Shown here: positions 5,083-8,019 of the stretch, piece after piece
How positions within the stretch are numbered: position 1 is the stretch's first letter
How the letters are laid out: the number at the start of each line of letters is the position of its first letter
Assembly: GCF_010500615.1 (NCBI RefSeq)
Contig: NZ_JAAGNX010000003.1
Coordinates: 62,001 to 126,000, forward strand
Direction: 5' to 3'
DNA from: Oceanipulchritudo coccoides
GTDB lineage: Bacteria > Verrucomicrobiota > Verrucomicrobiia > Opitutales > Oceanipulchritudinaceae
DNA: 64,000 nucleotides
Position numbers and translations under genes: made by a program
The notes under the pieces: generated by a model
Told to the model about the DNA's origin: nothing
What the model saw: only the letters and a program-made list of their open reading frames with translations
The model's database searches: none

Positions 5083-5796
5083 TTACTCGTCTTCTTTTAC
5101 GCCTAAAATGGCAAGATGCGATGCATCCCGGTAGAGATTCACGGCAGCTGTCTTGGTCGAAAAGGTATAGGTTGCGGCAACCTTTGCCCGGATCAATGGA
5201 AAATAATCAACCAGGGAGAAGGGATAGAAAATCCCGTCCCAATTGGTTGAATGGTACCCCTTCCCGCCGGTCAGGAGGAGTTTAAGGAGCCACCTCAGGT
5301 GCAAGTCGCGAAAGCATTGCTTCACCCGTTTGGTTAGCGGGGAGCCCATCCCGTAAACATTGTGGTCCGAAATGAAGACCAACTTGCGTGAAACCCGCAG
5401 GGCTTCACGAATGGCAGGTTCCGGATCCGGAATATGATGCAGGACACCAAACATCATTACACAATCAAAAGCACCATCTTCATAGTCGAGGTTGCAGGCA
5501 TCGCCTTCTGCCAACTGGGACTCCTTTAAGCCCTTGCCGATTGCCACGTCCCGGAGCTCCTTCACCGGTTCAACCCCCATGAAGGTCATTTCAGGATGCC
5601 GCTGCTCCAGATAATTGATCGACCGGCCGGTGCCACACCCGACATCCAGCACCGATTTAATGTTGTAGTGACGAAATATTCCGCTCAGCAAGGCCGATGC
5701 AATGAAATGCTCATCATTGGGATCAGCCACACAGGCGTCATCATAGCTCCCAGCGGTGTCCTTGTAATACTGTCTTTGCTCGTCTACTTCGCTCAT
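5083..5796 (-). CDS. Class I SAM-dependent methyltransferase
   Basis: A 237-residue methyltransferase of the Methyltransf_11/25 type. Motif I is [11 protein letters not shown] (about residue 50), the acidic loop follows in GVEPVKEL, and motif post-II is in [17 protein letters not shown], typical of small-molecule or lipid methyltransferases. The C-terminal part is more variable, with a basic segment ([17 protein letters not shown]) that may contact a membrane or a substrate. A good ribosome binding site (AGGAGAGG) precedes the ATG. It lies 10 bp upstream of asnS and just downstream of the noncoding region at 5.9-6.8 kb. The substrate cannot be named from the sequence. Confidence 0.85.
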
Positions 5797-5887: not shown

Positions 5888-5928
5888 CTAAAACAAAAGA
5901 GCCCCGCCTTCTTTCGAAGACGGAGCTC
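5888..5928 (-). terminator. Intrinsic terminator closing the noncoding RNA
   Basis: On the minus strand two 13-nt arms (5916-5928 and 5899-5911) pair without gaps (a few G-U pairs) around a GAAA loop, followed by TTTTGTTTT. This is a textbook rho-independent terminator. It ends a minus-strand transcript about 90 bp before the methyltransferase gene, so that gene must have its own start. Confidence 0.85.
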
Positions 5929-6792
5929 AAAATGTGGGACGTCGCTCGCCACGCGATCTTTCCCGGATGCTGACATTTGGCGCTCTGGATCTCTCCTGGC
6001 TGCCAGCTCCCCGACGCTATTCTCCGAGGCTCTTCGGAGTTGCGGCCTCGTAGCAGGGCCGAAGATGGAATTACTTCCATCTAGTTCGTGAGTGAGGCCT
6101 CTCAGCACAGATCGCTCCGCGGTTGCGAACCACAGAACTGCCGTACCTGACAGGGATATCGCTGTAATCCGGTATCCCTACCACTTTTCCCCAAGGTCGG
6201 CTCCTGTAGTTAAATAGGACGTTTGCCTTGGGTTACGGGTCTGACCTCTTACCTCTCGGGAATGCATTCAGTTTACAGGCCGACGACTCGGTTTTTCGAG
6301 CCCCCAGCTTCTCAAAGGAAACCTGCGGCTGTTGTCTAGTTTTCGGCCGCCTGCTTCCCCGCTTGCTCTACCGTTTTCGCTGCACCAACGTTTTATGGTC
6401 GCTTTTGGCGGGATTGGCCCCCACCCGGTTTGTTCAAACGGACGAACTGCACGGTAACATTCCTTGACCTTTCAGGTCACCGCGTTGGAGCTTCCAAGGA
6501 CACAAATCCTTCGGATTCCCTAACTCAGTCTGCTGTCTTTGTGGTGACCGCTTTCTACGCGGCCGACAGCGAACTGCCGGTTGTGTGCTATCACAGATCA
6601 GGGCTGTGTGACCAACCCTGGCACCAACGGTGAAATATGCCTCACCTCGTGGGGCTTGATGGCAACCTCCGCAGAGGATACCGGCCCTCGATTATGAGGA
6701 GCCAGATTCGTTCGATAAATCTGACCTTTCCCCGGTTGCCCGGGATTATCCTGAGGCCTTCGAGTTTCGAATGCCTGTTCTTTCAAAGAACT
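5889..6792 (-). ncRNA. Candidate large structured noncoding RNA, about 0.9 kb, unassigned
   Basis: A strong promoter (6799-6828) and an intrinsic terminator (5888-5928) bracket about 905 nt with no credible protein: open frames here are under 85 codons, lack ribosome sites and have no recognisable motifs. The interval is dense in perfect hairpins: GTTCTTT/AAAGAAC at 6777-6791, AATCC/GGATT at 6505-6517, GACCT/AGGTC at 6466-6478, CCCAAGG/CCTTGGG at 6190-6232 with an inner TCCT/AGGA, GGGATA/TATCCC at 6153-6178, GATGGAA/TTCCATC at 6064-6081 and CTCCG/CGGAG at 6022-6039. A possible long-range closing pair links 6751-6758 with 6096-6105. I checked by eye for RNase P, tmRNA, 6S, SRP RNA and group I/II intron hallmarks and found none. 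It may belong to a known large RNA class or be new. Confidence 0.62.
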
Positions 6793-6798
6793 GAGAAA

Positions 6799-6828
6799 AG
6801 TATGCTCTGGGGGGGCGCCGCCTGTCAA
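6799..6828 (-). promoter_or_regulatory. Strong sigma-70-type promoter of the noncoding RNA
   Basis: On the minus strand a perfect TTGACA -35 (6823-6828) is followed after 18 nt by CATACT (6799-6804). The predicted start, about 6792, coincides with the first hairpin of the RNA (6777-6791), and no ribosome binding site or coding frame follows. Confidence 0.65.
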
Positions 6829-6854: not shown

Positions 6855-6980
6855 TGTGAATAATTCACAGTTATTAACACTCCCCTTTTCGGGTGTGTAT
6901 CTAACTCCCTGCTAATTGGCAGGATACAGACCAAAACCGCTGTGAATAACTTTGGGCAAAAAGCAAGTTAGTGTGAACAA
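6855..6980. promoter_or_regulatory. Cluster of DnaA-box-like sites in AT-rich intergenic DNA
   Basis: TGTGAATAA, the complement of the DnaA-box consensus form TTATTCACA, occurs exactly at 6855-6863 and 6941-6949, and a one-mismatch relative TGTGAACAA at 6972-6980, all in one orientation. The first copy is part of a 15-nt palindrome TGTGAATAATTCACA. The flanking DNA up to 7045 is AT-rich, including TTTTTTCGGAAAAAA near 7008. The cluster lies between the 3' end of the 7048 membrane protein gene and the noncoding RNA promoter. It could be an origin component or a DnaA-controlled regulatory region. Confidence 0.4.
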
Positions 6981-7047: not shown

Positions 7048-8019
7048 TCAATTTTCGTCCTTTGGCGGCCTGGTAATGTTTTGAACTGCCTCTGTCGCGA
7101 CCACCAAACGCTGCAAAGCCTGATGGAAACTGGCCTCGCTGGCAGAATTGGCAAACGAAAGGGATTGTTCGCGTCGATCATAAGACCACTCTCCCCACTG
7201 CTCTAAAAGGATATTCAGGGCCGCGAGGGCCGCCCCGATAGCCTCAACATCCAGCTTCCTGAGCTCATAGACCTTGTTTGCTTCGGCAAAGAGCAGAATC
7301 CGTTGCATTTCTGCTACCGCAACGCGGTCAGCAGGCGGCTTGAGAGCCAGTTGATCAACGGCCTCGGTGTAGGAGTCTTCGAACGATTCAACAAACTGGG
7401 TAAATCCGCGAGCGGCCTCATAGAGCTTTTGATGCGCAAGTCGTTCGTCCTCCAGCTCCTCCCGGGTACGGAAAGTAATCCAAGTATCGGGTCCTCGCGT
7501 GGGATAAGTATTCAAGGCCTCTTTATAGTCATCGCTTTTGCGCTTGAGGGCGTCCCCCATTTTCTGGTCCAGGGCGCGGATCTTTTCGAGGGAAAGGACA
7601 TCAATCCGGCCCTCGTACTGGGTAAAGCGGTCCTTCGGGCGAGTGGATCGGGCAGACCGCACTTCATCAAGGGCCGCCTGCGCCTGACGGCGGAGCTCAC
7701 CCTGAAGGGCCTTTTGTCGACTGCTGATTTCCTTTGCAAACTGCTCATCAAAGCGCTCCTGGGCTAATTTTGCCATAAACAGGGGAAGGAGCAGAAGGCA
7801 TCCACAAAGACCAAAAGCAAACCACCCGACAAGGACCGGATCACGCCTGTTGATAAGAGGAGCACTGAGAATAAGGCCAATCCCGATAAGGACGACTGCC
7901 AACGGCCACCCGGTCGAGACGTAGACCGTATTGAACCAGTCAACATCAGGATACCAAGCACCCAGCTGACTGAACAAGAAGCCAATAAAGAAGATCAAAC
8001 TACCCAGAACCACCCTCAT
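7048..8019 (-). CDS. Membrane protein with N-terminal helices and coiled-coil region
   Basis: A 323-residue protein not recognised as a named family. Three hydrophobic helices are seen at about residues 4-22, 37-56 and 63-83. A charged alpha-helical region follows (QKALQGELRRQAQAALDEV and onward) with heptad-like spacing, probably coiled coil, and then a soluble helical domain to the end. Its ATG overlaps the tatD stop by 4 nt (ATGA type), so the two are translated together. The layout suggests an inner-membrane anchor with a large cytoplasmic or periplasmic helical domain. Function unknown. Confidence 0.85.
   Translation of the reverse strand: MRVVLGSLIFFIGFLFSQLGAWYPDVDWFNTVYVSTGWPLAVVLIGIGLILSAPLINRRDPVLVGWFAFGLCGCLLLLPLFMAKLAQERFDEQFAKEISSRQKALQGELRRQAQAALDEVRSARSTRPKDRFTQYEGRIDVLSLEKIRALDQKMGDALKRKSDDYKEALNTYPTRGPDTWITFRTREELEDERLAHQKLYEAARGFTQFVESFEDSYTEAVDQLALKPPADRVAVAEMQRILLFAEANKVYELRKLDVEAIGAALAALNILLEQWGEWSYDRREQSLSFANSASEASFHQALQRLVVATEAVQNITRPPKDEN

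Follow-up and report, generated by a model that had tools for sequence, protein, structure and literature searches.

A MISL noncoding RNA gene of Oceanipulchritudo coccoides with additional covarying helices and a predicted DnaA-box cluster at its promoter

What is encoded by about 0.9 kb of minus strand that runs from a promoter to a terminator and holds no believable protein? The question is raised by positions 5889-6828 of a 64,000-nucleotide stretch of the Oceanipulchritudo coccoides genome (contig NZ_JAAGNX010000003.1, positions 62,001 to 126,000; hereafter the window), in which an earlier note had proposed a large structured noncoding RNA that possesses both a promoter and a terminator of its own. 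We confirmed that the feature is a self-contained noncoding RNA gene of the known MISL family, encoded on the minus strand. In addition, we predict a cluster of boxes for DnaA, the initiator protein of DNA replication, at the MISL promoter across Verrucomicrobiota. This cluster appears to be new and provides a specific clue to the timing and purpose of the synthesis of MISL, an RNA that is catalogued without a function in the accessible literature.

Identity and distribution of the RNA

The Rfam covariance scan that the earlier note had called for (Rfam 15, run over the whole window) gave a single match in this stretch, MISL RNA (RF03079), which extends over the full model (1-751) with 386.1 bits against a gathering threshold of 274.6 (cmscan, E 2.8e-115; Table 1). 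This match and the covariation among homologues bear out the proposal of a large structured RNA, about 0.9 kb long and with its own promoter and terminator. The implied novelty of the RNA class fails, as the RNA belongs to a catalogued family that had gone unnamed; MISL was reportedly first described by Weinberg et al. 2017 (NAR). The hairpins picked out by eye proved real: 174 pairs of the Rfam consensus structure were mapped onto the window sequence, where RNA position p corresponds to window position 6752-p. Hallmarks of RNase P, tmRNA, 6S, SRP RNA and group I/II introns had been judged absent, and the scan agreed, returning no covariance-model match to any of them. As for coding capacity, no minus-strand open reading frame listed in the stretch exceeds 83 amino acids, in line with the earlier reading, and we met no conserved protein frame; the homologues vary as RNA, with paired, compensatory changes. 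These changes and the lack of a long frame leave next to no room for a missed protein gene.

Within the host's order, 84 of 373 sampled genomes carry MISL, representing 36 of 100 genera. The share is 94 of 384 in the class and 26 of 338 in a phylum-wide sample, where two of the 26 lie outside the class; the control genomes had none. The note had suggested a search of Opitutae genomes, and homologues in Opitutales genomes show strong covariation. When 84,980 species genomes were scanned with a pattern, the carriers among the matches listed were Verrucomicrobiota, besides a few labelled only 'bacterium', and the groups among these matches were Opitutales, Limisphaerales, Verrucomicrobiales and unplaced Verrucomicrobia. 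MISL is missing from many near-complete genomes of the order and is thus dispensable for replication in general. One copy per genome is usual, with a second copy in two genomes, G183 and G247. These second copies (G183:C33:31713-32464 and G247:C44:328935-329675) are diverged and have an altered 3' end, e.g., GUAGGAGCGCGCGGCG. ROOL RNAs are often found in phages and prophages, whereas a nucleotide search of phage and plasmid collections gave no match to MISL. A literature search by name and accession showed that a chemical-mapping data set used a window of a MISL RNA, and the accession is mentioned in a Chryseobacterium genome paper.

Table 1. Features of the MISL locus in the window, and MISL segments in levivirus contigs.
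Feature	Sequence	Position	Strand	Basis or remark
MISL RNA, part covered by Rfam RF03079	window	5941-6751	-	cmscan, full model
Sigma-70-type promoter TTGACA-18-CATACT	window	6799-6828	-	consensus match; -35 TTGACA 6828-6823, 18-nt spacer, -10 CATACT 6804-6799
5' leader hairpin GUUCUUUGAAAGAAC, conserved, outside the Rfam model on its upstream side	window	6777-6791	-	motif count; base covaries
Intrinsic terminator hairpin and U tail, 3' of the Rfam model	window	5899-5928	-	covaries across family; stem 5928-5899, 13 pairs, tail TTTTGTTTTA
Predicted pseudoknot A, GGAAUG/CAUUCC	window	6458-6463 + 6259-6264	-	score 407, null maximum 103; 19 double canonical changes
Predicted pseudoknot B, CUGUAA/UUACAG	window	6273-6278 + 6162-6167	-	score 374; 19 double changes
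Predicted pseudoknot C, UCACA/UGUGA	window	6607-6611 + 6591-6595	-	score 234; 19 double changes
Predicted pseudoknot D, CGAAC/GUUCG	window	6710-6714 + 6443-6447	-	score 217; 22 double changes
Predicted pseudoknot E, UGCUA/UAGCG	window	6051-6055 + 6015-6019	-	score 174; 12 double changes
Predicted loop-loop helix F, ACAAA/UUUGU	window	6538-6542 + 6502-6506	-	score 127; 10 double changes
DnaA box, exact TTATTCACA	window	6855-6863	-	sequence match
DnaA box, exact TTATTCACA	window	6941-6949	-	sequence match
DnaA-box-like TAATTCACA	window	6861-6869	+	1 mismatch
DnaA-box-like TTATTAACA	window	6871-6879	+	1 mismatch
DnaA-box-like TTGTTCACA	window	6972-6980	-	1 mismatch
MISL segment	L350	62-813		full model, 543 bits; replicase clear
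MISL segment	L351	1-about 476		maturation protein clear
MISL segment	L361	47-about 317		related to L350 and L351 by tblastn

Promoter, terminator and leader

The promoter and the intrinsic terminator claimed for the locus are both present on the minus strand. Consensus matches of these two kinds are, by themselves, close to chance (0.7 and 1.9 expected in shuffles, respectively); the terminator hairpin has the added support of covariation among 128 homologues. Transcription from the RNA's own promoter would start near 6792 and end near 5890 of the minus strand. The length of about 0.9 kb follows from this span from promoter to terminator, the Rfam model covering 811 nt.

The 5' leader hairpin has the near-universal family consensus GUUCYUUGANAGAAC, and 119 of 129 homologues have a relaxed form of the motif ahead of the Rfam model, with one match in shuffled sequences. 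A pairing of the leader loop with UUUCA in the body of the RNA is suggestive only (E 0.25, six double changes).

Additional helices and pseudoknots

To score covariation, we aligned 128 homologues by sequence (MAFFT), each extended by 70 nt on the upstream and 110 nt on the downstream side, and compared the result with 12 null alignments generated by simulation on the tree so that every column kept its number of changes; with only 12 null replicates, the E-values are coarse. Thirty-two helices outscored the best helix of all 12 nulls (null maxima 58-103), most of them being helices of the Rfam structure. New were the helices 242-247:439-444, 426-431:539-544, 116-120:131-135, 38-42:256-260, 647-651:683-687 and 165-169:201-205 (numbering of the homologue G605), all six of which cross Rfam helices or connect loops. 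Further new elements above the null were an extension at 397-400:421-424 (G605), the terminator hairpin in both its halves and the base of the leader hairpin. Each of the six helices underwent 10-22 double canonical changes on the tree, whereas partners displaced by 1-3 positions gave 0-6. In the window RNA, every one of the six is formed by letters that differ from those of G605; for example, pseudoknot A, which lies outside the Rfam structure, is GGAAUG/CAUUCC in the window and GGUUGC/GCAACC in G605. A long-range pair suggested from the window sequence (6751-6758 with 6096-6105) did not hold up, its mean canonical fraction across homologues being 0.49, with no covariation; the long-range helices that covariation supports are others.

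Judged by these covariation patterns, the MISL RNA is longer and more knotted than its Rfam model. The RNA encoded here shares with RF03079 the full-length match, the mapped helices and the host phylum, whereas neither of the two flanking hairpins (leader and terminator) is in the model, nor are the pseudoknots, which a covariance model cannot hold. The extra helices and the ends are new with respect to this model, and some may be contained in Weinberg et al. 2017. The transcript would adopt an ornate fold with multiple pseudoknots, and its revised ends and added pseudoknots define the full RNA needed for structural work, which in the case of GOLLD, ROOL and OLE revealed RNA-only complexes. 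These three are likewise large, ornate bacterial RNAs with a complex pseudoknotted structure, whose function is unknown or partly known (PMC12286853). They differ from the present RNA in that the Rfam scan gave no covariance match to any of them in the window.

Neighboring genes

The clusters of genes neighboring MISL are specific to clades, the two largest comprising only 21 and 19 genomes, and no conserved partner gene adjoins MISL across families. In the window, the downstream flank holds a methyltransferase and a class II (D, K, N) aminoacyl-tRNA synthetase, and the upstream flank a 323-amino-acid protein and a TatD-family gene. The methyltransferase frame (5083-5796) follows MISL on the same strand, an arrangement that could suit a cis-acting, riboswitch-like leader. 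We give this reading hardly any credence: MISL has its own terminator, which covaries family-wide, and the genes downstream are not conserved. That neighbors are conserved only within clades argues against a cis-regulatory role.

Two minor features of the locus were also recorded. The 323-amino-acid protein (window 7048-8019, minus strand) has no Pfam match and adjoins MISL in genomes of the same genus. ARAGORN reported a tRNA-Arg at 6518-6604 on the plus strand, antisense within MISL; this call is probably spurious, given that position and the absence of an Rfam tRNA match.

DnaA boxes upstream of the promoter

On reading the upstream flanks of MISL loci, we saw TTATTCACA repeated. Within the 160 nt upstream of the leader at 115 loci, the exact sequence TTATNCACA, the textbook DnaA box, occurs 58 times at 45 loci (shuffle mean 0.9, reversed pattern 2), and the relaxed TTNTNCAC occurs 254 times (15.2 and 22, respectively). 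All of these box counts include related genomes and are inflated by relatedness. The signal ends about 250 nt upstream, and within that distance 112 of the 115 loci have at least one relaxed box and 100 have at least two. Of the three loci without a box, two are the second, diverged copies of G183 and G247. Among loci outside the discovery set, 48 of 50 have boxes (131 boxes, compared with 6 for the reversed pattern), and the loci with an exact box ahead of MISL are spread over many families of the class. Boxes near the MISL promoter are therefore more frequent than chance, as would be expected of a promoter regulated by DnaA.

The boxes are also unusually close together. The window genome has 57 exact boxes, and the two upstream of MISL (Table 1) are its only pair at most 200 bp apart; in eight other genomes, any two exact TTATTCACA within 200 bp sit upstream of MISL. 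The same sequence also directly precedes dnaA, at a distance of about 20 nt from the start codon in the window genome, and does so in several relatives too; the host DnaA retains its DNA-binding domain (Bac_DnaA_C, E 1.3e-24; GGRDHGTVIHAVK). MISL resembles a DnaA-autoregulated dnaA promoter in having TTATTCACA just upstream of the gene, and differs from it in its tighter box cluster and in having a noncoding RNA as the target. As a side observation, the upstream regions of dnaA (L174, about 2680-2700, own contig C3) and of MISL both contain GTTATTAACACTC(T)CCC, a match that extends beyond the exact DnaA boxes.

Could another protein read these sites? In Opitutaceae and Limisphaerales-like genomes, they take the form of degenerate tandem GTGAAYAA/TGTGNANAA repeats, and binding by DnaA is here a prediction from sequence, both of which would suit a different regulator that recognizes TGTGNATAA. 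Such a regulator seems unlikely to us in view of the exact textbook letters and of the TTATTCACA that precedes dnaA in MISL-carrying genomes.

The boxes lie within an A+T-rich stretch, as they might at a chromosomal replication origin. GC skew, however, does not change sign at MISL in 55 of 63 loci, and the distance between MISL and dnaA ranges from 75 kb to about 2.5 Mb in 13 genomes. Sampled skew is weakly negative through both MISL and dnaA on the window's own contig, and in the complete genome G050 it flips near 2.1 Mb, with MISL at 2.45 Mb. An origin at MISL is rejected by the skew and the dnaA distances, and we regard it as highly improbable.

A trans-acting RNA under DnaA

Direct support exists for the assignment to the MISL family, the extensions at both ends, the extra helices, the box cluster, and the lack of both conserved neighbors and an origin signature. 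The explanation that we consider probable is that MISL is a stand-alone RNA that acts in trans and whose transcription is set by DnaA. DnaA would bind the boxes directly upstream of the -35 element, and this binding would most likely set the level of MISL, presumably through a change in transcription, and would thereby link the RNA to the replication or growth state of the cell. Activation by DnaA is our guess because the boxes sit upstream of the -35. A more specific proposal is that DnaA controls MISL as a trans-acting RNA linked to replication, with an RNA level that signals, or acts back on, the initiation of DNA replication in Verrucomicrobiota; we put its chances at about even. To our knowledge, no large structured RNA is known to be under DnaA control, and a limited literature search found none.

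A box cluster can also store DnaA without regulating a promoter. In Escherichia coli, datA and DARS are DnaA-box clusters outside the origin, and the boxes upstream of MISL might similarly be a DnaA reservoir or a locus controlling DnaA-ATP, with MISL adjacent or co-opted. Like datA and DARS, they are clusters away from oriC, and they form the tightest exact-box pair in the genomes searched. However, datA and DARS are fixed chromosomal regions, whereas the MISL boxes go with the promoter of a single RNA gene phylum-wide, keeping their position just upstream of it while all neighboring genes change. The diverged second copies in G183 and G247, two cases only, show that the RNA and the boxes can part. 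We see the reservoir as a minor possibility, and a trans-acting RNA whose transcription is set by DnaA as the probable explanation.

MISL in viral contigs

In three ssRNA-phage (levivirus) contigs in IMG/VR, MISL is joined directly upstream of the viral 5' end, each contig having a different MISL 3' breakpoint and a different virus (Table 1). Since leviviruses are without a DNA stage, these contigs derive from RNA, which suggests that MISL was transcribed and plentiful in the samples behind them. The topology of the fusions is that of template switching in cDNA synthesis, and they are therefore probably cDNA chimeras; a natural capture of MISL, a host RNA, by RNA phages is conceivable. A comparable one-pattern scan for RNase P yielded 20 viral contigs, and no match to the three levivirus query proteins was seen in any of them.

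A fourth fusion with the same topology lies at the end of a 15.1-kb viral contig (L444). Its positions 1 to about 165 comprise part of the leader and about the first 135 nt of MISL, and are followed by phage-like coding sequence that, by eye, resembles a tail sheath gene.
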